This document shows, in pieces, positions 1,509-41,952 of a DNA stretch of 47,875 nt. Position 1 is the stretch's first letter. Every line of letters starts with the position of its first letter. Made by a program: the position numbers and the translations under genes. Below the pieces are notes generated by a model. That model was not told the origin of the DNA and made no database searches. It worked only from the letters and a program-made list of their open reading frames with translations. The DNA is from an uncultured Pseudomonadota bacterium (lineage in GTDB: Bacteria > Pseudomonadota > Gammaproteobacteria > Steroidobacterales > Steroidobacteraceae), in assembly GCA_903929455.1 (NCBI GenBank), contig CAIYVA010000181.1:1-47875 (forward strand), in the 5' to 3' direction.

Positions 1509-2378
1509 ATGATGGTTCGATGGATGCTGGCCGCGCTTGGGTCAGCACTGACGCTGTGTCCTGTGATGCTGGAAGCCGCGCCCGGGACAAAAGACAACAG
1601 CACAATCGGCGGCCAAGACTCGGCTACCTATGATGCGCTCATGCATCTTGCGGCATCACCACATCGCACACCGATGCAGCGCGCTCACGATCATGATCGC
1701 CACCCGATAGAGACACTGACGTTTTTCGGTATCAAGAAAAACATGACTGTCCTCGACGCATCACCTGACAGTAACGGTTGGTATACCGAGCTATTAGCCC
1801 CTTTATTACGTGATCAAGGCCAGTATGTGGCCGCCCTCTGGGATGCGAAGTCAGATAGCCCCTATGAGCGCGCGGCTTTACAGACTTTCAAGGCAAAGCT
1901 GGCTGCCAGACCCGACCTCTACAGCAAAGTGAGCGTGGTGGCATTACAGTCCCCCCACTCGCTACACCCTGTTAAACCACGGACCGTCGATCTGGTCGTC
2001 AGCATCCAAGCGCTACATCTGTGGCTACTACATGACACTGCACCGGCGATGTTAGGTGCGCTGTATACAGCCTTAAAGCCTGGTGGTCTATTGGGACTCG
2101 TTGACAACCGCGCTGATCCCCTCAGCCCCACTGATGCGCATGCCAAATTAGGTTACGTCAATGAGGCTTATGCGATTGACCTGATCAAAAGCGTTGGCTT
2201 TGAGTTTTTAGAGGCGTCGGATGTTAATTCGAATCCAAAAGACGCTCGCGACTATGATCAAGGCGTTTGGGCGTTACCCCCTACCTACCGCATGGGCGAC
2301 AAGGACCGCAGCAAATACACTGAGATCGGCGAGAGCGATCGATTTACCCTGAAATTCCGTAAGCCCTCAGCGCGCTAA
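1509..2378 (+). CDS. Exported class I methyltransferase-like protein (COG4798 type)
   Basis: A 289-residue protein beginning with a signal peptide (MMVRWMLAALGSALTLCPVMLEAAPG). The mature part resembles the predicted methyltransferases of COG4798: an HDRHPIETLTFFGIKKNMTVLDASP-like opening (residues about 58-85), where a Rossmann-fold GxG would normally bind S-adenosylmethionine, then ALKPGGLLGLVDNRA near residue 190 and a C-terminal DQGVWALPPTYRMGD segment typical of the family. The SAM motif is degenerate here (VLDASPDSNGWYTE). Substrate and true activity are unknown. TAAAGGAAAG lies 8-14 bases before the ATG. It stands alone between the terminator at 1406 and the Nudix gene. Confidence 0.8.
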   Translation: MMVRWMLAALGSALTLCPVMLEAAPGTKDNSTIGGQDSATYDALMHLAASPHRTPMQRAHDHDRHPIETLTFFGIKKNMTVLDASPDSNGWYTELLAPLLRDQGQYVAALWDAKSDSPYERAALQTFKAKLAARPDLYSKVSVVALQSPHSLHPVKPRTVDLVVSIQALHLWLLHDTAPAMLGALYTALKPGGLLGLVDNRADPLSPTDAHAKLGYVNEAYAIDLIKSVGFEFLEASDVNSNPKDARDYDQGVWALPPTYRMGDKDRSKYTEIGESDRFTLKFRKPSAR

Positions 2379-11183: not shown

Positions 11184-12764
11184 TCAGAAAGACGCAACGG
11201 GTCTGTCTGCAGCCATCGGAACGATGGGCGCAGCGGAGACATCGGTTAAAGCAGCGAGCAACAACCGATCGGCCACTGAGGAGATACGATCGCGCTGCAT
11301 CAGGGCGACAGACCAATGCGGGGGAATGGATGAGAAGCCATAGATCGCGCCCGCTAACTGTCCCACTAACGCACTATTGATGTCAGCGTCGTGGCCGAGA
11401 TTGACGGCACACAGTACGGTGTCGCGGAAGTTCCTGCCCTGACTCAAGCACCAACGAAGCACACGCACAGTGTCGACAATCGTGCCCCCAGCCAAGGCAG
11501 ACCATTCAGAGGCTGTGCGTGCCTGCTGCGGATCCTCCGCCAGCACGGCCAAAAACGCAGGCGTCAGCGGATGCCGCACCCAAAGCTCTGGTAGCGGACA
11601 AAACTCAGGGGACAATAGCTCAGCGGCACTCGCACCCTGCAATGCCCCCAGCACGAGTGCGGCGATATAACGACTGGCATCCACCACCATCGGCGCATCG
11701 TGGGTTAATCGGGCCAAGCGCTCCGCAAGCAATAACGCCGCTTCGGGATCGACCAGATGGGAAGCGGCGACAACACCCATTCCGAGCAAAGGCTCGCGAT
11801 TAAGCCGCAGTCGCTCAACACTGGATGACCCATCGACGGCAGATTCCTGATTGAGGAAAGACACCGTAGGCGCGGTGATCCCAACACACTGGCCCGTTGC
11901 TGAGTCTGTCCCTAGACGCTGCCAGTCGCGTAACCGCCGCCGATAGTCTTCGGCGTCAAAGCCTGGATGCTCCAAAAGACTATCCGCCAACATCAGTGGC
12001 ATCGCGGTGTCATCGGTCCACGCGCCGCGCGGCAAATCGAAAGGACCACCACCGAGCAAGTCACGGATCGGCATAAACGTGCCGGCGGTCCGCGCCTGTG
12101 CAGGGGCTGCCAAGGCATCACCGAGTGCAAGCCCGTACAACAGACCTTGATAGCGGTCGCGCATATGCGCGGTGATATCCTCAAAGGGAAATGACACCGC
12201 CTCATGCGTCAGCACCGCCGATACCTCGCACCATTGGCGAATATAGTCAGCCTGCTCTTCGGTTTCTGGCGTGCGCGGAAACTCTCGGTGGCGCGAACTA
12301 TCGCGCCACAGTTGGGTTAGCGCGGCCAGCGCCTGCTCACCATCCGCTAGGCGCCGCGCGAGGTAACAGCCAATGACCAGACCGGTGCGGCCTATGCCGG
12401 CGTGACAGTGCACATAGACACAATGTCCATCTGCGAGCGCTCGATCAATCTCATCTAAGATGCGATTCATCTGCAAAGCATCCGTCGGCAACCCATGATC
12501 TAGTATCGGATGCCGGGAGTACACGACCGGACGATGAGCATCTACGAGAGCCGTCGGCGGCAACAGCGCATCGTAGGGTTCTAACTCACCATGGCACGTC
12601 AGATCGATCCACCAACTGACACCCACCGCCATCAAATCGTCGAGTCGATCAAAGGTGCGAGCCTCGGTACGCGCACCCGGATAACGGCCCGCCAGAATGC
12701 GCCCCGGCTCTACCCAATACGTCTGTTTCGGCGCATCCAGCGGCTTGGCCTTTACTCCGGACAC
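11184..12764 (-). CDS. Fusion: dual-specificity phosphatase + ADP-ribosylglycohydrolase
   Basis: A 526-residue two-domain protein. Residues about 15-180 form a cysteine phosphatase of the dual-specificity type: the P-loop is [10 protein letters not shown] with nucleophile Cys120 and Arg126 (Cx5R). Residues about 204-500 form an ADP-ribosylglycohydrolase (DraG/ARH) domain with [11 protein letters not shown], the Mg-binding WTDDT (249-253) and the C-terminal [18 protein letters not shown] (from about 456), where the usual DADT reads DADI. It could therefore remove both phosphate and ADP-ribose from targets; this is inferred from domains. The GTG start has GGAGG five bases upstream and overlaps the ttcA 3' end by 13 bases. 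Confidence 0.88.
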
Positions 12765-28081: not shown

Positions 28082-31009
28082 TTAGAACTGCACAGTCATA
28101 TGTGCATAGACATATCGACCGAGCGAATCATACGCACCTGGAAAGGTATTTCCATTACACGATGGTGTACAGCCATTACCCGTCAGGACAATCGGCGGAT
28201 TCTTATCGGTGAGATTATTCATGCCGAGACGCATCGTGACGCCAGACGCCACGCTGAAAGCACTGGACAAGTCCAAATAGCTGTAGCTACCGATATTCGT
28301 GTAGTAACCGGGCGTGTAATCCCCAGACATTAAGGGATTGCTGCTCGTATTGTCATAAGCCGCTGAACCAAAGAAGCGCCAGCGCAAATTGACATCCACA
28401 CCATGCCAAGGTGTTGTCCAGGTGGTATTCACCACTGATCTCCATTTTGGGTTTGATGTGCCGCAGGTGTTGCCGAAATACCCAGCACAGTTATAAGAGG
28501 CAGAGCCCGTGTAAGGCTGCCCTTCTAACTTGGCCAGATGAGTGGCATTAACCTGGAAGCCCAACGTGCCCCAACGATCCATCTTCAGACGGTAGCTACC
28601 CGTGAAATCCACACCGGCGGTGGCGGATGTTCCGCTATTCACCGCTAGGTCGGATACATAGGCCGCCGGATCCGTCCACAAGGACCCTGTAGGCGAGCGA
28701 TGAACGAGGCTACAGAAGTCCTGATTTCCTTGCACATAGCACTGATTCAAGATCACATTGGAGCCAATTGCTCCAATGACGTTCTTGATCTTAATATCGA
28801 AATAATCCACGCCCAACTTGAGGCTTTCAATTTGATGAGGCATGAACTGCAAGCCCACCGTATAGGTATCGGCCGTTTCAGGCTTCAGATCGGGATTACC
28901 GCCCACTAGGCCTTGATACTGACCCGCCGGGTTGGGACGGACATTAGGCGGACAAGTGGCAGGTGGGGTGTCCACTGCGCAGGGGTCAGACGATCCGTCT
29001 AACGCGATTACCTGTGAAGTGTACAAGTCGCCAATCGAGGGCGCTCGCACAGCACGCTGATATCCTGCGCGCCACCGGACGTCTTTAATCGGCGACCACT
29101 CAAGACCTAACTTGTACGTGTTCGTGTTGAACCCAGTGGTGTAGGACGAATATCGATACCCCACTTCCGCGCTCAGCGATTGAGCGAAGCGCTGATTCTC
29201 GGCAATGGGCAGTGACCACTCCGTGAACACTTCCGCAACATGGAAGCCACCGGTTAACGGCACCGCGGGTGCGCCATAACCTGCAGCGTCGGGCCCAGAA
29301 CCATCAGGCGCCAAGGTTTGGCTCTCAAGATCTGGGCTGTAGCTCATATGCTCATTTCGGTACTCGGCGCCGAAGTTTGCTTGCACGCCATGCGCAGCCA
29401 AAGGGAACTGCCAACCATACTTCGACAGATCGCCAGTGAGCGAAGCCGAGACAATCTGCTCAGTGACATTGCCGCTCTGCTGCAACGGAACCGATAGATA
29501 CTTCAGGGCTGCTGCAGTTACGCCGCCCGGCACAAACACGTTCCATGGCACGCAGCCGGCTCCCGATGCGCAGACAGGTGAGTCAACAGTGCCCACCACA
29601 TCTAAAGCAAGGGTCATACGAGTGTTAGAAAGGTAATTTGAGTCAATATTACGAGTATCTACCAAGCTCTCTTGTGCAGAAACGTCATAGTTCCACGCAT
29701 CATTAATACTGCCTTTTGCGCCGAGTAAGAAGCGAACGCTATTGTTAAGGAAGTCAGTGTTGCGGTTTCCACCCTCCACGTTTCGGCGGAACAGAAGCAA
29801 GTCCACGTTGTCGCCCGGCACCGCTTGCCCATTGCGCACATCAGACGAGCAAATCGAGTTCTGCCACGTCGCAGACTGCAAGAAGGGATTGGTGGCACAG
29901 TTCAATGTCACCGGAAGACCAAAGGCGCCACTCGGGGCAACCTGCGCCACGGTGGAATTTCGCATGTACATGAACTCTGAATAGACGTTCACATGTGAAT
30001 TGATGTCGTAATTAAGGAACGCGCCTGCCGTCCAACGCTGGTTGGGTCTTTGTTGGTAATTCAAGGGGCCATAGTTGTAATAATCGTTACCACCGAAATC
30101 ACGGACGAGTCCCGATTGTTGATCGACTGTCTTGAAAAAGTAAGATGAGCCGTAGTAACCTAAAAACGTTCCCCCTTTGTTGGTAATGGAACCACCACAA
30201 TACGGCTTCGCTCCACCCGAAGCGGCATTTAGGGTACACGAGCTATAGTCGTATTTGCTTTGCAATACGGCGGCCGCGGTGTTGTACGTCGCGTACACCG
30301 TGGCATTGCCCTTACCATCGGCAAAGTTCGCGCCCGCTATGAACGACAAGTCCTTCTGGCCACCAGCGGTCACATTGCTAGACGGCAGCGGATCACCCGC
30401 TTCTTTGACAATGGAAGCAATGCCGTTGTTACTCTGCTTGTGCATGAACGTGCCATAGTTGGCATCGAATTGAACCCCTTCGAAGTGGTTATTCAGCACA
30501 AAGTTAACAACGCCCGCCACCGCGTCAGCACCGTAGACCGAGGATGCGCCACCTGTGAGCACATCGACGCGCTGAATAAGTGCAGCCGGCACCTGATCGA
30601 TATCGGAGTAATTACGACCATCGGTGGAGCCAGGTCCTAAGCGACGACCATTGACCAGCACCAAGGTGCGCGAGGGGCCCAAGCCACGGAGGTCAACGGA
30701 GGCGGTACCGTCAGCCCCATTCGATACGTTGGCGTTTTGACCAGCAAACACCGAGGGCATCTGATTCAAGATGTCTTCTACGCGCGACAGACCGACGGCG
30801 GCGATATCATTCGCGGAGATACTTTGAACTGGACTGATAGAGACGTCGTTTAAAGTTCTAAGGCGCGATCCAGTGATCACGACATCTTCAAGCACAGGAC
30901 CTGCGTCAGATGGTTTTGGCGCTGTCTGGGCAAAAGCCGCCGAAGACGCCGCAATGGCCATGGCCGCCAATGTGTAATGTACGGCACGGTGCAAATTGTA
31001 ATTTTTCAT
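28082..31009 (-). CDS. TonB-dependent outer-membrane receptor 2
   Basis: A 975-residue TonB-dependent receptor. Signal peptide MKNYNLHRAVHYTLAAMAIAASSAAFAQ, TonB-box-like LEDVVITGSRLR near residue 43, plug domain about 50-190 (ISPVQSISANDIAAVGL, DLRGLGPSRTLVLVNGRRL, RVDVLTGGASSVYGADAVAGVVNFVL), barrel to the end with the family GVDYFDIKIKN and GNPDLKPETADTYTVGLQF blocks. The ATG at 31009 with GGAG upstream is preferred over an ORF start 84 bases earlier. Substrate unknown. The plug wording (VNGRRLGPGSTDGR) is common in receptors of peptide-using and sphingomonad/xanthomonad-like bacteria. Confidence 0.93.
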   Translation of the reverse strand: MKNYNLHRAVHYTLAAMAIAASSAAFAQTAPKPSDAGPVLEDVVITGSRLRTLNDVSISPVQSISANDIAAVGLSRVEDILNQMPSVFAGQNANVSNGADGTASVDLRGLGPSRTLVLVNGRRLGPGSTDGRNYSDIDQVPAALIQRVDVLTGGASSVYGADAVAGVVNFVLNNHFEGVQFDANYGTFMHKQSNNGIASIVKEAGDPLPSSNVTAGGQKDLSFIAGANFADGKGNATVYATYNTAAAVLQSKYDYSSCTLNAASGGAKPYCGGSITNKGGTFLGYYGSSYFFKTVDQQSGLVRDFGGNDYYNYGPLNYQQRPNQRWTAGAFLNYDINSHVNVYSEFMYMRNSTVAQVAPSGAFGLPVTLNCATNPFLQSATWQNSICSSDVRNGQAVPGDNVDLLLFRRNVEGGNRNTDFLNNSVRFLLGAKGSINDAWNYDVSAQESLVDTRNIDSNYLSNTRMTLALDVVGTVDSPVCASGAGCVPWNVFVPGGVTAAALKYLSVPLQQSGNVTEQIVSASLTGDLSKYGWQFPLAAHGVQANFGAEYRNEHMSYSPDLESQTLAPDGSGPDAAGYGAPAVPLTGGFHVAEVFTEWSLPIAENQRFAQSLSAEVGYRYSSYTTGFNTNTYKLGLEWSPIKDVRWRAGYQRAVRAPSIGDLYTSQVIALDGSSDPCAVDTPPATCPPNVRPNPAGQYQGLVGGNPDLKPETADTYTVGLQFMPHQIESLKLGVDYFDIKIKNVIGAIGSNVILNQCYVQGNQDFCSLVHRSPTGSLWTDPAAYVSDLAVNSGTSATAGVDFTGSYRLKMDRWGTLGFQVNATHLAKLEGQPYTGSASYNCAGYFGNTCGTSNPKWRSVVNTTWTTPWHGVDVNLRWRFFGSAAYDNTSSNPLMSGDYTPGYYTNIGSYSYLDLSSAFSVASGVTMRLGMNNLTDKNPPIVLTGNGCTPSCNGNTFPGAYDSLGRYVYAHMTVQF

Positions 31010-31560
31010 TCGCCTGCTCCCAAATACTATTGTTTGATTCGAAGTAAGAATCGATTCTGTGCGATCTGTTCCCAACAGCGCCCGCAGATGCACTACTCAT
31101 CGCTATTATTAATTCTTTCATATTACGCGCAGTTGTAATGTAGTGGCAATGAACCCGTGTTAAAAAAGCCTAAAAAACGTGATTGCCGACTCTTTTTGTT
31201 GCTAAATAGCAACACTTTGTCATTAAACCCGACCATGCTGTGGATCTAGCGGCCACGGATCAGATCCTCCGCTCACCTCAGGCCTTGCTCCGATCAACTC
31301 GGGCGCGGTGAGGCCCTTCTCAAAAGCTTGCTCGCTTACCTGCAAAAACTCAGGTTCGCTTTGCCAAACGATTCGTGCCCAATTTGGTCGTTGGCGACCG
31401 GCACACAAGATAGTGGAACCCGTGCCGCTCGACGGCTAGTCAGACAGGCTCACCGCCGACAGCAAGCCAGCCACGACCGCCCTGCAAAATCCCCCACCAT
31501 CGAAAGACGATATTCACATACCGCTGTTACAGTCACGCCATTCTCTATAGATTGAATCCC
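31010..31560. other. Regulatory gap between TonB receptor 2 and metallophosphoesterase
   Basis: About 550 bases separate these divergent genes. It holds a perfect palindrome (31197-31214) and an open minus-strand frame 31223-31435 that looks weakly coding (see findings). AT-rich tracts on both sides would suit promoters; I do not assign them. Confidence 0.45.
31197..31214. promoter_or_regulatory. Perfect palindrome upstream of TonB receptor 2
   Basis: TGTTGCTA-AA-TAGCAACA, an eight-base perfect inverted repeat with a two-base centre, 188 bases upstream of the receptor start. Preceded on the plus strand by TTTTT but not followed by a T-run. The size and symmetry suit a dimeric repressor or activator site. 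Confidence 0.4.
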
Positions 31561-32439
31561 ATGCACCGCCACCGACGTCTACTGATTCCCTTGCTGCTGG
31601 CCTTTGGGCTTACCGATCCCGCCTATGCTGGCGTGAAGGTCTATGCGGCCGGCGACATCGCTGAGTGTGACGCATCGATACAAAAAAGCGCTGCTGCACG
31701 AACGGCAGCATTAATTCCCGATGACGGCATTGCGTTGGTGTTAGGCGACACCACCTACCCCAACGCAGATGCCAATACCTTAAACAGATGTTACGAACCG
31801 ACGTGGGGTCGCTTTAAAGCATCAAGCTATGTCGTGCCCGGCAATCATGATTACGTCAACGGTGAGCCCACCGATTTTTTGGCTTACTTCGGCGCACGAA
31901 ATCCCGGCAAAACATGGTTTCGGGCTCCCTTAGGGGAGTCTTGGTGGGTCATTGGGCTCGACAGCAACTTAAAGGAGCCCGCCCTCACGCAACAGCACGC
32001 GTGGCTCATGCGCGAACTGGCCACCATCAAGGGCGATGGCAAATGCATTGTCGCTCTTTGGCATCACGCTCTGTTTTCCACCGGATTGCACCATGGCGAT
32101 GGCGAGCTGATGAAGCCCGCCTGGCGGGTGCTCGATGCTGCGGGCGCTGATCTGGTGCTCTCTGGGCATGAGCATTTTTATGAATCATTTGAACCGCTGG
32201 ACGCGAATGGGCATGCACAGACAGTCGGCATCCGCGAATTTGTCGTGGGCACCGGTGGCGGACGGCTAGCCGATCTGTCCTTTCACACCAACCATCGAGT
32301 CTACACACGCCGTTATGGTGTCCTAAAATTGGACTTGGAATCAGATCACTACCGTTGGGTCTTTGAGACGATCGGCCACAATCACCTCGATGCGGGATCG
32401 GCACACTGCCGAAATGCCGTGCCTGACAACACTCATTAA
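31561..32439 (+). CDS. Exported calcineurin-like metallophosphoesterase
   Basis: A 292-residue exported phosphoesterase. Signal peptide MHRHRRLLIPLLLAFGLTDPAYAG; then the five metallophosphoesterase motifs: GDIAEC (residues 31-36), GDTTYPN (62-68), GNHDYVN (94-100), LWHHALF (166-172) and SGHEHFYE (201-208). This layout resembles purple-acid-phosphatase-like secreted enzymes of bacteria. Substrate unknown. The TTG nine bases upstream is an alternative start. It precedes bufA by 28 bases on the same strand, so the phosphatase may be co-transcribed with the bufferin operon. Confidence 0.9.
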   Translation: MHRHRRLLIPLLLAFGLTDPAYAGVKVYAAGDIAECDASIQKSAAARTAALIPDDGIALVLGDTTYPNADANTLNRCYEPTWGRFKASSYVVPGNHDYVNGEPTDFLAYFGARNPGKTWFRAPLGESWWVIGLDSNLKEPALTQQHAWLMRELATIKGDGKCIVALWHHALFSTGLHHGDGELMKPAWRVLDAAGADLVLSGHEHFYESFEPLDANGHAQTVGIREFVVGTGGGRLADLSFHTNHRVYTRRYGVLKLDLESDHYRWVFETIGHNHLDAGSAHCRNAVPDNTH

Positions 32440-32467
32440 TCACTCTTATTTTGACTGGGGAGAACCC

Positions 32468-32737
32468 ATGACCGATACAACCCGATGCGCTTTACGAAGT
32501 GGCTCCGCCATCGCAGCTGCCGCCGCTTTGTTGTTCACCTCCATCGCGATCCCAGTCGCACACGCTACTGAGGCCAAACTACAATGTGATGGTGTCAATG
32601 CCTGCAAGGGCACCTCCGCTTGTGGCACCGCCAACAACAGCTGCGCTGGTCAAAACGCCTGCAAAGGCCAAGGCTGGCTGCTGCTCACGCAAGCCGACTG
32701 TGACGCTGCCAAAGCGAAAATTAACCCGCCCGAATGA
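32468..32737 (+). CDS. bufA: Bufferin precursor peptide, BufA2-like
   Basis: An 89-residue precursor of a bufferin, a RiPP-type copper-binding peptide. An N-terminal Sec-type signal runs to about residue 34 (AIAAAAALLFTSIAIPVAHA). The mature part has six Cys (40, 46, 52, 59, 65, 78) in CDGVNACKG / CGTANNSCAGQNACKGQGW, with the paired (V/Q)NACKG units of the BufA2 type. In described bufferins the MNIO enzyme BufB with BufC converts core Cys to thiooxazoles that chelate copper; the same is inferred here. GGGGAGA precedes the ATG by five bases. ATGA overlap with bufB. Confidence 0.85.
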   Translation: MTDTTRCALRSGSAIAAAAALLFTSIAIPVAHATEAKLQCDGVNACKGTSACGTANNSCAGQNACKGQGWLLLTQADCDAAKAKINPPE

Positions 32738-33579
32738 GTTCTCGCCCACCGGCTACCCATGCCTGCAGGCCACTGATCGGCGTCGGCGTGGGGCTCAGGC
32801 CCGCGCACTATGAAGCCATTTTGCAGAGCGCACCGCGCATTGATTGGTTTGAAGCGCTCACAGAGAACTACTTAGTAGGCGGCGGTCAGCCGCTCTATTA
32901 TCTAGACGCCATTGCCGAGCGTTACCCGGTTGCCTTGCACGGCGTGTCGCTCTCGATAGGCTCCACGGATCCTCTCAATCTTGCCTACCTCCAAGATCTA
33001 AAGGAACTGGCAGCACGCTGCCATGCGTCGATGATCTCAGATCATTTGTGTTGGACAGGAATACGGGGCATCAATTCCCATGACCTACTCCCACTGCCCT
33101 ATCACGAGGAAGCCCTTCAGCACCTCATCCCCCGCATTCGCCAAGTACAAGAGATTTTAGAGCGCCCACTGGTGCTGGAAAATATCTCGCGATACATCAG
33201 CTTCGTAGACTCTACGTTCAGCGAATGGCATTTTTTATCGGAACTCACTCGCAGAACCGGTTGCCGCCTGCTGCTCGACATCAATAACATCTATGTGAAC
33301 GCTCATAATTTTTCTTTTTCGGCGACCGACTTTATAGACGGCATCCCCATCAACGCAGTTGAGCAGTTTCACATTGCCGGCTACAGCACACAGAATGCTC
33401 TCCTCATTGACTCGCATGATCAGTCAGTCAGCCCGCCGGTTTTTGATCTACTCGCTCACGCGATCAATCGCTTCGGCGTAAAACCCGTTTTATTAGAGAG
33501 AGACGATCGCATACCCGCTCTCAGCGAACTGACGGGTGAACTTGATAAAGCGCGGCAGCTTTTAAGTGACGCGCATTAA
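32734..33579 (+). CDS. bufB: MNIO-family (DUF692) peptide-modifying oxidase, BufB
   Basis: A 281-residue DUF692/MbnB-family enzyme, a multinuclear non-heme iron oxidase with a TIM-barrel fold that uses O2 to modify Cys residues of a precursor peptide. The N-terminal GVGVGLRPAHYEAIL, WFEALTENYL and HGVSLSIGSTDPLN are family signatures; candidate iron ligands include His69, His104 (SDHLCW), His116, Glu149 (VLEN), Asp182 and Asn184 (LDINNIYVN), His213, and Glu255 (LLERDD). The start codon overlaps the bufA stop (ATGA) and it overlaps or abuts bufC, so the three are coupled. Confidence 0.93.
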   Translation: MSSRPPATHACRPLIGVGVGLRPAHYEAILQSAPRIDWFEALTENYLVGGGQPLYYLDAIAERYPVALHGVSLSIGSTDPLNLAYLQDLKELAARCHASMISDHLCWTGIRGINSHDLLPLPYHEEALQHLIPRIRQVQEILERPLVLENISRYISFVDSTFSEWHFLSELTRRTGCRLLLDINNIYVNAHNFSFSATDFIDGIPINAVEQFHIAGYSTQNALLIDSHDQSVSPPVFDLLAHAINRFGVKPVLLERDDRIPALSELTGELDKARQLLSDAH

Positions 33580-33589
33580 ACAGTCCAAC

Positions 33590-34384
33590 ATGCCACTGCG
33601 CCAACTACAAACGGCTGTCCAGAATGCCATCATCCATAACGATGTCGGGCCGCTGCACGCATCGCACGTGCTGGTCTTAGACACGGCATCGGCTATAGGC
33701 GTTTATCAACAGGCCTATCGCACTCGACTGCGCGATACTCTACACAGTCACTATCCAATGCTAGCAAAGCACTTGGGGTTCGCGGCTTTTAATCAGCTCG
33801 CAGATGTCTATATTGGACGGCATACCCCTGAGACTACATCCCTTCGTGACTATGGAGACAGGCTCGCCGCGGCTTGTCTCAGCGACTTACCCAGCGATCA
33901 GGCCGAGACCGTCGCGGAACTGGCCTCCTTTGAGTGGAAGCTCGCACATGCTTTTGATGCCTTAGAAGGCTCACCGGTCACCGTCTCCCAACTATCGACC
34001 ATCGAGCCCAGCCGGTGGGCAGACCTTCGCTTTACGGGCGTGCCTAGCCTTCTGCGCCATCGGGCCACCACCCCAGCAGTCACGCTCTGGCGGCAGTTGC
34101 ACCAGACTGACACCGACAGTCACGCCACGACCGGCGCGCTATCGGCAGTCCGACAAGCGAGCGAGCACTCTCCCACTGACTGGGTGATCAGTCGCATAGG
34201 CCGTGAAGTTCGTTTTCGATCTATCCCCCCGGATGAGTCCGCCGCCCTAGACATCCTGCTGTCCGGACTGAGCTTTGCTCATCTGTGCGAGCATTTGGCC
34301 GATACACATCACGAGGCGACCGCGAGCACCGCGGCCACTTGGCTCAAAACCTGGGTCGAGGCTGGCTGGCTAGAAACGGTATAA
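33590..34384 (+). CDS. bufC: DUF2063 partner protein, BufC
   Basis: A protein of about 264 residues with the DUF2063 putative DNA-binding-like N-terminal domain (LRQLQTAVQNAIIHND, VYQQAYRTRLRDTLHSHYPMLAKHLG) and a C-terminal helical and winged-helix-like region. In bufferin and methanobactin operons such a protein (BufC/MbnC) forms the heterodimer with the MNIO enzyme and holds the precursor peptide. ATG at 33590 gives the usual N-terminus; a GTG at 33566 overlapping the bufB 3' end by 14 bases is an alternative. The stop codon lies within the TATAAT preceding the M3 peptidase gene. Confidence 0.88.
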   Translation: MPLRQLQTAVQNAIIHNDVGPLHASHVLVLDTASAIGVYQQAYRTRLRDTLHSHYPMLAKHLGFAAFNQLADVYIGRHTPETTSLRDYGDRLAAACLSDLPSDQAETVAELASFEWKLAHAFDALEGSPVTVSQLSTIEPSRWADLRFTGVPSLLRHRATTPAVTLWRQLHQTDTDSHATTGALSAVRQASEHSPTDWVISRIGREVRFRSIPPDESAALDILLSGLSFAHLCEHLADTHHEATASTAATWLKTWVEAGWLETV

Positions 34385-34385
34385 T
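34380..34385 (+). promoter_or_regulatory. Consensus -10 box at the bufC stop
   Basis: TATAAT spans the bufC stop codon, 30 bases before the M3 peptidase GTG. No good -35 lies 17 bases upstream (CGAGGC), so this is only a candidate internal promoter for the peptidase. Confidence 0.3.
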
Positions 34386-34415
34386 GCTTCGCTACTCAAA
34401 AGAGGAATCTTGCAC

Positions 34416-36605
34416 GTGCGTACTCTTGTCCGCTTCACGACTGTTGGTCTTACCCCTCTTATTCTTTTGTTGAGTCTGACGATGTCTCACAGCACAGCCG
34501 CCCTACCCACCGAATCGGCATCCAATAGCCTGCTGCGCCCTTGGAGCGGCCCCTATGGCGGTGTGCCACCCTTTGATCAAATTAAAGTGGCTGAGTTTCC
34601 ACAGGCGTTCACGGTTGGCATGCAGGAACAGCTCGCGGACATCGCGCGCATCACGGACACTCAACGAGCAGCTACGTTTGATAACACCATTGCGGCACTC
34701 GAGCGCTCCGGTCGGACCTTAGATCGCGTGTACAGGCTCTTTGGCATTTATGGATCAACCTTAAAGGATGACCAAGTTCAAGCCATTGAGAGCGAGTGGG
34801 CACCTAAGCTCGCCCAGCAAGCGGATCTGATCACGCAGAACACCGCGCTTTTCAAACGAGTGGAGGCTGTCTATACGACGCGCGAACACAGTCAGTTAAG
34901 CGCCGAGCAAAAACGCCTGACGTGGGTGGTCTATACCAACTTTGTGCGTTCTGGCGCACAACTCGATGCGCCCGCAAAAGAAAAGCTGTCCGCATTGAAC
35001 CAACAATTGGCTACGCTCTATACGCAATTCAGTCAGCGACTGCTCAATGATGAGAATGAGCACTGGCTCGCCTTAAAATCCGAGGCCGATTTCGCGGGGC
35101 TTCCAGACTCAGTGCGCGCTGGTTTGATCGCTGGCGCCGAGGCGCGCGGGATCGATGCGCTCGGTGCGGTCTTAAACACGCGATCCAGTGTAGAGCCTTT
35201 CTTGGAGTATTCGACGCGACGGGATCTGAGAGAGACGGTGTGGCGTACTTTCATTGGCCGCGGTGATCAAGCGGATAAAAACAATACGAAGGACATCATC
35301 ACTCAGATTCTGGCACTGCGTGCAGAGCGTGCGCAGTTATTAGGCTTCAAGACCCACGCCCATTGGCGTCTCGAGGACTCAATGGCCAAAACGCCGGAAC
35401 ATGCCATGGCACTGATGGAATCCGTTTGGCCTGCTGCGGTCGCACGCGTGCGGGAGGAAGTCGCTGATATGCAGGCAGTGGCCGACCAACGCAGCGCACG
35501 CGAGGGCACACCAGCCATCCGACTCGAAGCGTGGGACTACCGCTATTATGCCGAGCTCGTACGCGAACAAAAGTATGATCTAGACTCGAATAAGGTAAAG
35601 CCTTACTTGCAGCTTGAGAAACTGCGCGAGGGCATGTTTTGGGTCGCAGGCCAATTATTCGGCTTTTACTTTAAGGAAGTACCCGCGGGTCAAGTGCCGG
35701 TTGCTCATCCAGACATCCGAGTGTTTGAGGTGACCAATGCAGCACATGAACATGTTGGGCTTTGGTATTTTGATCCTTATGCGCGTCCGAATAAAGAATC
35801 AGGCGCATGGATGAACGAATACCGATCGCAGGAGCGTTTTTTAAAACCTGTGACCACCATCGTGTCCAACAACTCCAATTTCGTAAAGGGCAAGCCAGGT
35901 GAGCCCGTGCTGATTAGCTGGGAGGATGCGACCACCCTATTCCATGAATTTGGTCACGCCCTGCATGGCTTATCTTCCCACGTTACTTATCCCACGCTTG
36001 CGGGTACGTCGGTTGCACGGGATTACGTCGAGTTCCCCTCGCAGCTCTTAGAGCACTGGCTCTCTACACCTGAGGTGCTTAATCGCTTTGCACTGCATGT
36101 GGACACCGGCCAGCCTATGCCAGCGGCACTGGTGCAAAAAATCCACAGCGCAGCTACATTCAACCAGGGTTTTAAAACGGTCGAGTACTTATCGAGTGCT
36201 TTAATTGATATGAAATTGCACTTGAGCGGTAAGCGCGTCATTGACCCGGATACGTTTGAGGCTGAGACACTCGCGGCGCTCGGCATGCCCAGAGAGATCG
36301 TGATGCGGCATCGCACCCCGCAGTTTGGTCACATATTCTCGAGTGATGGCTATTCGGCTGGTTACTACAGTTATTTGTGGGCAGATACCTTATCGACGGA
36401 CGCATGGGAGGCCTTCATGGAAGCGGGCGGCGCGTATGATCCAGCGGTTGCCAAACGACTACGCGAGCACGTATTTATGATTGGCAACACGGAGGATCCG
36501 GCTGACGCCTATCGCGCATTTCGAGGTCGTGATCCAGGGACGAGCGCTTTGATGCGGCACCGCGGCTTTCCTGTCAAAGAGACGCATCCAAACACACCGA
36601 AATGA
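34416..36605 (+). CDS. Exported M3-family oligopeptidase, Dcp-like
   Basis: A 729-residue zinc metallopeptidase of the M3 family (peptidyl-dipeptidase/oligopeptidase). A hydrophobic signal (TTVGLTPLILLLSLTMSHSTAA) opens it, then the long helical N-domain and the zinc site HEFGH at residues 510-514 (TTLFHEFGHALHGL). The FKTVEYLSSALIDM region and the terminal SAGYYSYLWADTLSTDAWEAF segment are family blocks. GTG at 34416 is chosen because AGAGGA lies nine bases upstream; a TTG at 34410 is the alternative. It follows bufC by 31 bases. Expected to cleave short peptides in the periplasm. Confidence 0.92.
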   Translation: MRTLVRFTTVGLTPLILLLSLTMSHSTAALPTESASNSLLRPWSGPYGGVPPFDQIKVAEFPQAFTVGMQEQLADIARITDTQRAATFDNTIAALERSGRTLDRVYRLFGIYGSTLKDDQVQAIESEWAPKLAQQADLITQNTALFKRVEAVYTTREHSQLSAEQKRLTWVVYTNFVRSGAQLDAPAKEKLSALNQQLATLYTQFSQRLLNDENEHWLALKSEADFAGLPDSVRAGLIAGAEARGIDALGAVLNTRSSVEPFLEYSTRRDLRETVWRTFIGRGDQADKNNTKDIITQILALRAERAQLLGFKTHAHWRLEDSMAKTPEHAMALMESVWPAAVARVREEVADMQAVADQRSAREGTPAIRLEAWDYRYYAELVREQKYDLDSNKVKPYLQLEKLREGMFWVAGQLFGFYFKEVPAGQVPVAHPDIRVFEVTNAAHEHVGLWYFDPYARPNKESGAWMNEYRSQERFLKPVTTIVSNNSNFVKGKPGEPVLISWEDATTLFHEFGHALHGLSSHVTYPTLAGTSVARDYVEFPSQLLEHWLSTPEVLNRFALHVDTGQPMPAALVQKIHSAATFNQGFKTVEYLSSALIDMKLHLSGKRVIDPDTFEAETLAALGMPREIVMRHRTPQFGHIFSSDGYSAGYYSYLWADTLSTDAWEAFMEAGGAYDPAVAKRLREHVFMIGNTEDPADAYRAFRGRDPGTSALMRHRGFPVKETHPNTPK

Positions 36606-36636
36606 AGCAGGGCTTATTAGCCGATTGGTCAGACTC

Positions 36637-36661
36637 GGCGTGGCTTTAGTAGAGCCACGCC
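36637..36661. terminator. Hairpin between convergent M3 and namZ genes
   Basis: GGCGTGGCT and AGCCACGCC form a nine-base stem with a seven-base loop. The loop contains the namZ TAA stop (36646-36648), so the structure straddles the end of that gene and lies 31 bases after the peptidase stop. No T-run follows, so termination in either direction is a guess. Confidence 0.45.
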
Positions 36662-37854
36662 CCTGCCCACTCCTCACGCCACGCTTGCTCGTCCTTAGCG
36701 GCCATCCACTCCAGATCGCGCGGGGTGGCTGTAGGATCATCGACCCACTCGCGTAGCCAAGGGCCTCCATTGATGACATCAATGGCCAATCGTCCTTGCG
36801 CGTACTCATACGGAAAATCACGCCACAACGGATAATCCGGTCGCAGTGCGCGAAGCGCCTTAAAGGCAATGGCCATTAACCGCCAAGGCTTAAAAGCGTT
36901 ATGGTCATAAGTGCCGTCATCTAAATGAATCTGCATGCCACTGCACAACTGCCCCACATGCTTGTGGAATGTGGGCTCAAACCAGCATGTGCGTAAGCGA
37001 CAGCCTGCTAGCCACTCAGGCGCGAGGCAATGCATGTGTGCTAACCAATCATGCGCATCCACATCGGGGGCGCCGAACATTTCTAAGGGACGCGTCGTCC
37101 CACGTCCCTCCGACAGAGTCGTTCCTTCCAATAACACGGTACCTGAGTAAGCTCGCGCCATCGACAGGGATGCTGCATTGGGACTGGGATTAACCCACGC
37201 ACGCTCTCCCAGTGGCCAGCCAAAGCCTGGGCCGCTATCAGGCGCCCAACCGAGCATTGGAACGACGTCATAATCGACGTTTAAACCAAGCTCGCGAATA
37301 AACCAATGACCCGCTTCGCCTAAAGTGAGGCCGTGGCGCATCGGCAGCCGTCCGGCACCCACAAAACTCTCGTGTCCCGCCTGCAAGGCCAAGCCTTCTA
37401 CCATCCGCCCCGCTGGATTGGGACGATCCAGCACCCACACCGTTTTGCCATGCTCTGCTGCGGCTTCCAACAGGTAACGAAGCGTGGTTAGAAAGGTATA
37501 AATACGACAACCTAGATCTTGCAGGTCAATCAACAACACATCGAAGCTACGCATCATCTCATCGGTAGGCTTACGCACCTCGCCATAGAGACTAAATACG
37601 GGGATGCCTAAACGCGGATCTAAGTAGTCCGTGGATTCGACCATATTGTCCTGCTTGTCGCCGCGAAGCCCGTGCTGCGGTCCGAAAGCGGCGGTTAAGG
37701 TGATATCAGCGGCAGAGGCCAATGCGTCCATCGCATGCGTCAGATCTTTGGTCACAGAGGCTGGATGGGCTAACAGGGCCACCCGACACCCTGATAGGCG
37801 TCGGCGTCGCACCGGATCTGACAGCAGTTGATCAATCCCAAAATCCATGGGCAT
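36646..37854 (-). CDS. DUF1343 protein, NamZ-like exo-beta-N-acetylmuramidase
   Basis: A 402-residue DUF1343 family protein. B. subtilis NamZ of this family removes terminal N-acetylmuramic acid from peptidoglycan fragments, so a role in muropeptide recycling is inferred. Family signatures are GIDQLL at the start, ALLAHPAS, FGPQHGLRGDKQDNM, PVFSLYG, LLIDLQDLGCRIYTF, VLDRPNPAG, LPMRHGLTLGEAG, WVNPSPNAASLSMA, LLEGTTLSEGRGTTRPLEMFG. There is no signal peptide. It follows the DOMON-like gene by five bases, a pairing I recall from other proteobacteria. Confidence 0.9.
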   Translation of the reverse strand: MPMDFGIDQLLSDPVRRRRLSGCRVALLAHPASVTKDLTHAMDALASAADITLTAAFGPQHGLRGDKQDNMVESTDYLDPRLGIPVFSLYGEVRKPTDEMMRSFDVLLIDLQDLGCRIYTFLTTLRYLLEAAAEHGKTVWVLDRPNPAGRMVEGLALQAGHESFVGAGRLPMRHGLTLGEAGHWFIRELGLNVDYDVVPMLGWAPDSGPGFGWPLGERAWVNPSPNAASLSMARAYSGTVLLEGTTLSEGRGTTRPLEMFGAPDVDAHDWLAHMHCLAPEWLAGCRLRTCWFEPTFHKHVGQLCSGMQIHLDDGTYDHNAFKPWRLMAIAFKALRALRPDYPLWRDFPYEYAQGRLAIDVINGGPWLREWVDDPTATPRDLEWMAAKDEQAWREEWAGAWLY

Positions 37855-37859
37855 TGATC

Positions 37860-38408
37860 CTACGCTATGCGCAGGACAAATCCCCGTCGATCATGAAAAT
37901 CGGGGCGATTCAGTGGATGATGCGCTGCAAAATAATGCAGAACGCCATCGACCCCCTCGATGACGGCGGATAAACCGATCTGCAACGGTGACGCCGGCCA
38001 AGCACCAGCGCGCAGTCGCACAATCAAGGTCGCCTGCGCTTCGGAGACCGTGCTCGTGATCAGCGGCACGACGGTGTCAGTCGACTGCGCGATCGTCCGA
38101 TAGTCCGAAAATTGATAGGCCGCATAGCCGCCGGACGGTGCCCAGTTAAATTCACGGTAGCCGGGCTGATCCGCTTCAGCAACAAAGGTCTCAAAACAGG
38201 TGTGTTGCCACAACTCATCGGCCTGATGAGTCTGAGCATAAGGAGGGAGCAAACAGTGATCGAGTGCGCCTGTGAGATCGTAACGACACTCCACAGCCCC
38301 ATTTGAAAAGCACGTCACCGTAACATTCACCGTGACCGGCAACGATGCTTTAGGCACTGTGGGATGTGCCATCAGCTGCGTCGTCAAATGTGCACGAATA
38401 GGATCCAT
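37860..38408 (-). CDS. DOMON-like domain protein
   Basis: A 182-residue single-domain protein of the type annotated as DOMON-like. Key segments are DELWQHTCFETFVA, GYREFNWAPSGGYAAYQFSDYR and LQIGLSAVIEGVDGVLHYFAAHHPLNRPDFHDR. Function is unknown; DOMON folds bind haem or sugars. Just upstream of namZ with a five-base gap, suggesting a shared transcript and possibly a sugar-related role. No signal peptide is evident. Confidence 0.82.
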   Translation of the reverse strand: MDPIRAHLTTQLMAHPTVPKASLPVTVNVTVTCFSNGAVECRYDLTGALDHCLLPPYAQTHQADELWQHTCFETFVAEADQPGYREFNWAPSGGYAAYQFSDYRTIAQSTDTVVPLITSTVSEAQATLIVRLRAGAWPASPLQIGLSAVIEGVDGVLHYFAAHHPLNRPDFHDRRGFVLRIA

Positions 38409-40368: not shown

Positions 40369-41952
40369 TCACGCGAGAGGATCTTGAACCGAGGCACGGT
40401 GAGTAGACGGCGTCTGACAGCGGACCAAGGTCCATTCAGGCGTTGAAGCCAGTTTCAGATACCCCACCAAGTCGGGTAACTGCTCAAGCTCTGAGGGCAA
40501 AACGGCAGGCTCGACTGAGCGCTGCAGGGTGCGACTCTCAGACCGATGGGCTCCTTTCAGCCAGCCCATCGGTCGACTCTTAGACACCTGCTCGCGGATC
40601 ACTTCACGCTCACCGATCAGACGGGCCGCAAAGCGTGCGGTACCCCCTTGCTCACTGGCTGAGCAGCGCAGAATCAGACTATTTCCACAGTTCTCAACAA
40701 TGGTTTGTGCTGCATGATGGCCATAGGTCGCAGACACCTGCGCAATTGACTGAAAGCCGAGCACACAGCGACCGCCAAACTTCCTTAAGCGCGCGAGCGC
40801 GTCCTTCAATCCCTCAATGGGCCCTAAGGCATCTAACTCGTCGACCACAAACCACAACCGATGATCCGCTTCGCCTGCGCTCATCGCTTCAAAAATGGCC
40901 AACCGCATCCACGTCGAGATCAGAGAACGCAATGAAGCGATTTGATCTGCCTGATAGGGCAAGAACAAGACACCACGGCCATCTCGCACAAAGCGACGAA
41001 TGGAAAACCCACGGGCGTTCTGCTGATGAATATATGCCAAAGGCGCCAATACGCTCACCAGGACCGTGCGCACTGAGGCAAACATACGCTCATTGCCAGA
41101 CTGCAAAAAAGGCTGCGCCATACTGCCTTCTAACAGCACAGTCAGTTCCTCAATCGGCGCCGAACGACATAGACGAAGGAGCTCCTGCAAATCACGTAGG
41201 CCGCCTTCGTGCGTGCGCGCGAGTAGCGCGCTAAAAAATACACGGGCATATTGATTCCACTGCTGATCACCAGAACCGGCCTCTGGGATAAGAGATCGCG
41301 CCATCTGATCATAGTCGTAAGGCGCGCAGAGCTCCGCATACAGATCCCAGCATAATGAACGCTGATCAAATGGATTTAAGATCACATCACCGCGATCTGC
41401 GTTATAAAAATCTCTGAGATAGCCGCCATCCGGATCGGCAAAGACCGCCCGATCGCCTCGATGCAGCGCCCCGTCCAGCAACTCACGGATCGCTGTACTC
41501 TTACCTGTGCCGGTCGTGCCGAGGATTTTGAAATGCTTCGTTTCGCTCTCAAAAGCAACCGCTTGACCGGCCAACGTTAACTGCTGGCCTATGGATCGAA
41601 CAGATGGAGACAGGCCTAGGGAAACCAAACGCGTCCCACGCTGCACGCTCAATCGGTTGCGACCGGCCATGTCTCTACCGGCTAACCAGAACCCAAGTAG
41701 TGGTACCGCAAGCACTGACATCGGCGCCGATAGGATCGGTAAAACCCCGATCCGCGTCATGAGCCACCGAAGGGCTGCACCAACCAGCAGACCGACTGGC
41801 AAGATGACCACGGCCATGAGCACAATTTTCGGAAGGTACGATGCACGCGCCCCACGCGCTCGAAACCCAGCGTACAGACCCAATACACAGAGCCCGTACA
41901 GTAGGCAGCCACCGAACACCCCTCCTCCTAACACCATAGGCACCAACGACAC
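40369..41952 (-). CDS. Type IV coupling-protein-like ATPase (TraD/TrwB family)
   Basis: A 527-residue membrane ATPase related to conjugation coupling proteins. Two or three hydrophobic segments occupy residues 1-92; then a P-loop GTTGTGKST (145-153), Walker B FVVDE (368-372) and GFQSIAQVSATYG, typical of the TraD/TrwB RecA-like domain that pumps DNA into a type IV secretion channel. A GTG start is used. Apart from the RadC-like gene beside it there are no other conjugation genes, relaxase or mating-pair genes in the window, so it looks like an orphan from an integrative or conjugative element. Confidence 0.85.
   Translation of the reverse strand: MSLVPMVLGGGVFGGCLLYGLCVLGLYAGFRARGARASYLPKIVLMAVVILPVGLLVGAALRWLMTRIGVLPILSAPMSVLAVPLLGFWLAGRDMAGRNRLSVQRGTRLVSLGLSPSVRSIGQQLTLAGQAVAFESETKHFKILGTTGTGKSTAIRELLDGALHRGDRAVFADPDGGYLRDFYNADRGDVILNPFDQRSLCWDLYAELCAPYDYDQMARSLIPEAGSGDQQWNQYARVFFSALLARTHEGGLRDLQELLRLCRSAPIEELTVLLEGSMAQPFLQSGNERMFASVRTVLVSVLAPLAYIHQQNARGFSIRRFVRDGRGVLFLPYQADQIASLRSLISTWMRLAIFEAMSAGEADHRLWFVVDELDALGPIEGLKDALARLRKFGGRCVLGFQSIAQVSATYGHHAAQTIVENCGNSLILRCSASEQGGTARFAARLIGEREVIREQVSKSRPMGWLKGAHRSESRTLQRSVEPAVLPSELEQLPDLVGYLKLASTPEWTLVRCQTPSTHRASVQDPLA

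Follow-up and report, generated by a model that had tools for sequence, protein, structure and literature searches.

Bufferin operons, a set of three bacterial genes described only recently, yield an exported small peptide with altered cysteines that probably captures surplus copper, and the locus examined here raises the question of whether such a cluster is a working bufferin operon, which cysteines of its precursor would be modified, and under what control it stands. It lies in a 47,875-nt stretch of DNA analysed here as a whole (the window). Thousands of Buf1 and Buf2 precursors have been collected previously (PMC12452194), and the locus appears to be one bufferin among these thousands, intact and ordinary except for its lysine pattern and its missing control genes. 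Taking together sequence comparison, structure models and analogy to characterised systems, we regard it as highly probable that the locus is a functional Buf2 bufferin operon, the peptide of which would be oxidised at its inner cysteines and hold excess periplasmic copper.

Organization of the bufABC operon

The operon consists of bufA (32468-32737, + strand), which encodes an 89-aa BufA2 precursor (NF050166, E 3.3e-23, 81.7 bits against a cut-off of 60), bufB (32734-33579, +), which encodes a 281-aa MNIO (DUF692) maturase (bufferin maturase model NF050167, E 1.6e-105, 352.2 bits against 310; PF05114, 346.1 bits), and bufC (33566-34384, +), which begins with a GTG codon and encodes a 272-aa DUF2063-type partner of PME type 1 (PF09836, E 4.7e-16, 59.3 bits against 27.2). 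This order of precursor, DUF692/MNIO protein and DUF2063 partner was proposed in an earlier note on this DNA and is borne out by the coordinates and the NCBIfam and Pfam matches, as is the proposed coupling of bufA to bufB by an ATGA (32734-32737) that combines the stop of the former with the start of the latter. All three reading frames are intact and each overlaps the next, with an overlap of 14 nt between bufB and bufC (33566-33579). The whole assembly yields a single BufA2 match (E ≤ 1) and a single BufB match, i.e., one bufferin cluster was found, and a profile search of the assembly gave no DUF2282 protein (BufA1, PF10048) over cut-off. A calcineurin-like phosphoesterase gene (31552-32439, +; PF00149) ends 28 nt before bufA, and an M3 peptidase (Dcp-like) gene with a TTG start (34410-36605, +; PF01432) begins 25 nt 3' of bufC. 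The phosphoesterase gene is considered here as context and not as a bufferin component, and it is perhaps now co-transcribed with the buf genes.

The precursor had been described as BufA2-like, and comparison with both precursor families agrees with this, since BufA scores over the NF050166 cut-off and gives no PF10048 match. Its six mature cysteines (40, 46, 52, 59, 65 and 78), their x5-x5-x6-x5-x12 spacing and the repeated NACKG units, present in two exact copies, are likewise as described. An additional seventh cysteine, Cys7, which is Ser in the nearest relative, falls within the signal-peptide region and is rightly omitted from the count of mature cysteines. Residues 1 to about 33 form an Ala/Leu-rich stretch that is conserved in the alignment and, judged by eye, is likely a Sec signal peptide, with a putative cut after A-H-A. 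The six cysteines align with those of 38 relatives in a 39-row alignment of frames preselected for having six Cys. The wider precursor sample comprises the 104 frames scoring above 60 bits among 114 matches, ten low-scoring DUF2282-like ones being omitted. In 105 six-Cys cores, collected with a regular expression that itself imposes the six Cys and does not fit the single frame of the 104 that lacks C4 (L080), the C5-C6 gap is 12 residues in 97 and 13 in eight. The structure model of BufA is poor (pLDDT 63.5), too weak to judge the putative C40-C78 disulphide.

BufB was aligned with 3BWW, TglH and MbnB, and its N and D-x-H motifs line up with those of 3BWW. Fourteen of its residues (E40, E44, H69, H104, D117, E149, D182, N184, N185, H213, D226, H228, E255 and D257) are invariant in 109/109 BufB rows, five of 114 having been removed by a length filter, and among them are those that we take, from MNIO structures generally, to be the iron ligands. 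Thus, BufB does not lack the presumed iron-ligand set on which the earlier note had made its reading depend. The N and D-x-H motifs, which supply the site-3 residues, correspond to N175/D242/H244 of HvfB, the Ala variants of which are inactive (PMC13419390). Tyr217 of the window BufB occupies a position at which 55 of 58 non-redundant rows have His; its interpretation as a lost iron ligand was rejected, the sister genome (G013) having His, the loci L080 and L143 Tyr, MbnB Phe and TglH Gly at this site. Asp258, which follows the presumed catalytic Asp257, stands where 3BWW has Phe and, by motif matching through 3BWW, at the position of FonB-Phe250; a Phe to Asp exchange at this MNIO position is given for Cys-Lys enzymes (PMC13097082). 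The same 58 rows, which include some BufA1-type loci, have D at position 258 in 40 cases, A in nine, T in six and G in three.

For BufC, no PDB relative was found by sequence at E ≤ 1, and the score against the NCBIfam HvfC model (25.5) is far below the cut-off of 142. An AlphaFold2 model built on an alignment of 42 of 59 non-redundant BufC proteins reached a pLDDT of 90.7, and a Foldseek search with it returned 3dee first (E 1.4e-6, TM 0.75 on the target) and TglI second. The 3dee structure is that of NGO1945, a type-1 MNIO partner whose two domains are named in PMC12452194, and the predicted fold places BufC among the DUF2063-RRE partners of PME type 1.

Relationship to known MNIO systems

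Because the curated models are passed, the presumed iron site is conserved and BufC has the predicted fold of a type-1 partner, assignment of the locus to the Buf2 ("Cys-Lys" captophorin) clusters of the bufferin family is supported by sequence and model, and with it the bufferin-type operon proposed earlier. The Buf2 bufferins (Buf_6/12Cys, BufA2) share with the window a six-Cys precursor with a signal-peptide-like N terminus, an MNIO, a DUF2063 protein and the order A-B-C; however, C3 and C4 of the window precursor are not followed by Lys and no doxX gene adjoins the cluster. In the account of PMC12452194, doxX is a core but not obligatory gene of Buf2 clusters. The absence of a DoxX-type gene nearby, already noticed earlier, is confirmed: none occurs in the window cluster, and the only DoxX protein of the assembly (PF07681, E ≤ 0.001) is encoded on another contig (C103). 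The Buf2 system studied in PMC12452194 is that of C. vibrioides; the BufA2 model gave no match on the Caulobacter control genome. The Cys-Lys captophorins as presented in PMC13097082 have the NACKG motifs and the Asp at the FonB-Phe250 site in common with the window, in which, unlike in these, the Cys-Lys arrangement is confined to two of the inner four cysteines.

Other relatives are more distant. The BufA1/DUF2282 bufferins use the same enzyme superfamily and partner type, but the window precursor does not match PF10048. With the oxazolin/fontiphorin captophorins (EGKCG, Lys-Cys), the window shares the MNIO-PME1 pair and a precursor that is likely of Sec type; it differs from them by having no EGKCG repeats and by an Asp instead of Phe next to the catalytic Asp, and BufB does not pass the HvfB model (251.8 against a cut-off of 360). 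Methanobactin MbnABC shares the MNIO fold and aligned motifs, whereas the window system has a precursor with a likely signal peptide and a DUF2063 partner, and BufB falls short of the MbnB model (69.2 against 325).

Predicted maturation and the Cys-Lys pattern

By analogy to characterised relatives, BufA would be made with a Sec signal peptide doubling as leader and be handed by BufC, through its DUF2063 and RRE-type domains, to BufB, the mixed-valent diiron centre of which would oxidise C46, C52, C59 and C65 to 5-thiooxazoles with the loss of four hydrogens each. The outer C40-C78 pair would probably form a disulphide after export, and the mature peptide would sequester excess copper in the periplasm. 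The reaction, export, disulphide and copper role assumed here are those of the relatives: a loss of four hydrogens per Cys and thiooxazole formation are described for HvfBC (PMC13419390), FonBC (PMC13097082) and MmrBC (PMC12538549), and in BufA1 the first and last Cys form a disulphide while the central ones are modified (PMC12452194). The Buf2 modifications are presented as not yet identified in PMC12452194, where agreement is reported only for the mass lost at each Cys and for the band at 305 nm. The BufA1 analogy and the Cys-Lys pattern together narrow the likely sites to the four inner cysteines, without settling them.

These four putative sites are not equivalent. C2 (Cys46, codon 32603-32605, +) and C5 (Cys65, 32660-32662, +) are followed by Lys (C46-K47 and C65-K66), as in 105/105 and 104/105 cores, respectively. 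C3 (Cys52, 32621-32623, +) and C4 (Cys59, 32642-32644, +) are atypical, with Gly and Ala in place of the Lys that follows them in 87/105 and 90/105 cores, respectively. The resulting pattern after the inner cysteines, K-G-A-K, contains two Cys-Lys motifs, the minimum among the 105 cores. A larger collection, for which the regular expression forces Lys at C2 and related sequences were counted individually, comprises 120 distinct cores, with a Lys count of four in 94, three in nine and two in 17; this prevalence of four or two indicates that C3 and C4 tend to lack Lys jointly. The class lacking both comprises 12 of 106 BufA-BufB pairs (families f1 and f15) and takes three changes, gains or losses, on a quick 106-row BufB tree that carries long-branch warnings, at least two of them by its starred branches.

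Either the +1 Lys is dispensable at C3 and C4, or each product has two thiooxazoles along with two thiols. In the latter case BufB would act at C46 and C65 only, C52 and C59 would remain thiols, and the resulting mixed thiolate/thiooxazole site would differ in its metal preference. The near-universal Lys after C2 and C5, its joint lack at C3 and C4 and the three changes that this class takes on the tree speak for such half modification, as does a BufA2B2C2 model in which the substrate Lys is set on BufB2-Asp251 (PMC13097082). However, C52 and C59 are kept, and with C4 missing from only one of 104 frames the inner cysteines seem to be selected; the related FonB accepts, and even prefers, small residues after Cys (PMC13097082), and Asp258 is retained. 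We consider half modification rather unlikely and favour oxidation at all four inner cysteines. No tendency of residue 258 to vary with the count of Cys-Lys motifs was seen by eye, e.g., L034 and L035 have Ala258 yet four inner Lys. The role of the +1 Lys in the choice of Cys is a question raised from a model in PMC13097082, and the natural K-x-x-K precursors of the window, its congeners and other lineages provide a test of whether this residue picks the modified Cys in Buf2.

Possible loss of an ECF sigma/anti-sigma/DoxX block

The surroundings of the operon were compared in 15 genomes of the genus, the window's own included, the sigma factor being sought within the fetched stretches and the anti-sigma protein across genomes. 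Five genomes (G001, G005, G008, G010 and G012) have doxX directly upstream of bufA on the same strand and, divergent from doxX, genes for an ECF sigma factor and an anti-sigma factor, which in G010 match PF04542/PF08281 and DUF3379 (PF11859), respectively. The anti-sigma protein occurs in 8/15 genomes, namely these five and, as the last three, G003, G007 and G011, but was not found in G000, G013, G004, G002, G006, G009 or G014; in all, it is the first-named eight that carry the pair. In the last three (loci L150, L149 and L147, respectively), bufB is faced by the sigma pair but has no adjacent BufA2 gene; the latter is on another contig, at 0.3 to 1.2 kb from a DoxX gene, and precursor and maturase genes seem to have become separated. 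Altogether, the ECF sigma/DUF3379-type pair stands divergent from buf genes in L154 (4428-5866, - strand), L155, L151, L152, L125, L147, L149 and L150. Beyond the genus, sigma and anti-sigma genes lie near BufA2 in three loci of the family (L113, L114 and L123) and in one (L039) of 80 named loci, taken from 135 candidates and mostly of Pseudomonas; no doxX was found in these 80 with the G010 protein as query, a search of low sensitivity.

In the window and in its sister G013, the locus is without sigma, anti-sigma and doxX genes. The phosphoesterase gene is separated from bufA by about 30 nt in G013, close to the 28 nt of the window, and by about 2 kb with other genes between in G010 and G001. 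The short gap fits a deletion of the sigma/anti-sigma/doxX block, the direction of which we infer.

A candidate promoter accompanies this block. The motif GTAA-N17-CGGTCT has 18 copies in 473 kb of the relatives' stretches, a count that is partly circular because the motif was derived from eleven such regions; in the same 473 kb, each of twelve other spacers gives 0 or 1 copies and the reversed pattern 1. Twelve of the 18 copies have a sigma gene on one side and either doxX or a buf gene on the other, divergent pairs occur in G001, G010 and G012, and exact copies are present in seven of the eight genomes with the sigma pair, G008 being the one without. Among 19 distinct BufA2 loci of the order that were fetched later, six have the motif, which lies 181-215 nt ahead of the C1 codon in the orientation of the buf genes, and 13 do not. 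The 80 named loci (842 kb) have one copy of the motif and one of the control; the window and G013 have none, and the window's own assembly has two copies against three of the control, which is chance level. The sigma-F motif of Caulobacter, GTAACC-N16-CGAA (PMC3511200), is similar with a different -10 part. A sigma-70 scan of 31000-34600 gave six sites against a shuffle mean of 1.9 (sd 1.3), three of them just upstream of bufA (two overlapping at 32300-32329, one at 32423-32452); these are possible promoters, with 9-of-12 matches too weak to rely on. Without the block and behind the phosphoesterase gene, the operon would have its metal response, if any, through another promoter.

Control of bufferins by ECF factors is already known from Caulobacter, in which two DUF692 clusters are copper-induced under the ECF factor SigF (PMC8224329), with copper or chromate as inducers of these SigF-controlled clusters over the two reports (PMC8224329, PMC3511200). 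Genes for a sigma factor and the anti-sigma factor NrsF are reported in Buf1 but not Buf2 clusters in PMC12452194, and a literature search of limited reach found no pairing of DUF3379 with bufferins. The congeners thus offer a candidate ECF sigma/DUF3379 regulon and promoter for Buf2, and the window lineage would be a natural case without it. Combining this loss with the lysine pattern, one could picture a rebuilt bufferin, freed from ECF sigma/DUF3379/DoxX and GTAA-N17-CGGTCT control and carrying two thiooxazoles beside two free thiols. We think this combination improbable; if true, it would imply a different inducing signal and a metal site unlike those of known bufferins.

Alternative functions

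The related mmr cluster of Microbulbifer is reported as not expressed under copper (PMC12538549), and a copper response is thus not to be presumed for the window operon. It is conceivable that the bufferin serves against a metal or stress other than copper (candidates are gold, cadmium, chromate and mercury), as hinted by related gig/bufferin operons and MerC fusions (PMC12452194) and by the response of the Caulobacter SigF regulon to chromate and further metals (PMC3511200, PMC8224329). However, for the captophorins in the papers cited here it is copper that was studied and that is bound, and we give such a role little credence compared with copper sequestration.

Alternatively, the operon could be in decay, left over in a small genome (its assembly is 2.4 Mb) that has lost regulator and doxX. 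In addition to the missing anti-sigma match in the genome, sigma and doxX genes in the stretch and motif in the window, this would accord with the long BufB stem (0.63 changes per site on the quick tree) that the window shares with G013 and with a BufC only 51% identical to that of G013, against 77-80% for BufB. However, BufC is the less conserved protein in 6/6 pairs compared (ten chosen, four lost to filters), the three frames are intact, their overlaps are retained and the presumed iron site is complete. The dN/dS values against G013 are 0.12 for bufA, 0.10 for bufB and 0.14 for bufC, at a dS of 1.0 to 2.7 that is near saturation. Because these values are low, decay is very unlikely in spite of the long common stem, and a functional operon remains the preferred reading.

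Least probable of all is an operon of four or five genes with the M3 peptidase as an enzyme that would trim or recycle the bufferin. In its favour, the M3 gene follows bufC by 25 nt in the same orientation, and its orthologue accompanies bufB and/or bufC in one stretch in ten of the 15 genus genomes (G000, G001, G004, G005, G007, G008 and G010-G013); however, the stretches of G002, G006 and G014 retain M3 and NamZ genes while having no buf genes and, among the 80 named loci (flanks of up to 5 kb), only L032, which is G013, has M3. The peptidase was therefore rejected as a fourth bufferin gene and is seen as an old neighbour; G003 and G009 have only distant M3 relatives.

Other genes of the window

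The M3 gene and a convergent NamZ exo-muramidase gene (together 34410-37854 in the window) occur in 12/15 stretches of the genus, with or without buf genes and sometimes kilobases apart. For two long frames of the window, 1509-2378 (+) and 37860-38408 (-), Pfam gives no match at E 1e-5; next to NamZ, in the corresponding position, G013, G002 and G014 have a frame comparable in size to the latter (cluster c14). Farther away, the window encodes an ADP-ribosylglycohydrolase with an N-terminal DSP-type phosphatase domain in a single frame (11184-12764, -) and a TrwB/TraD-type conjugative coupling protein (40369-41952, -; PF10412, 335.5 bits).
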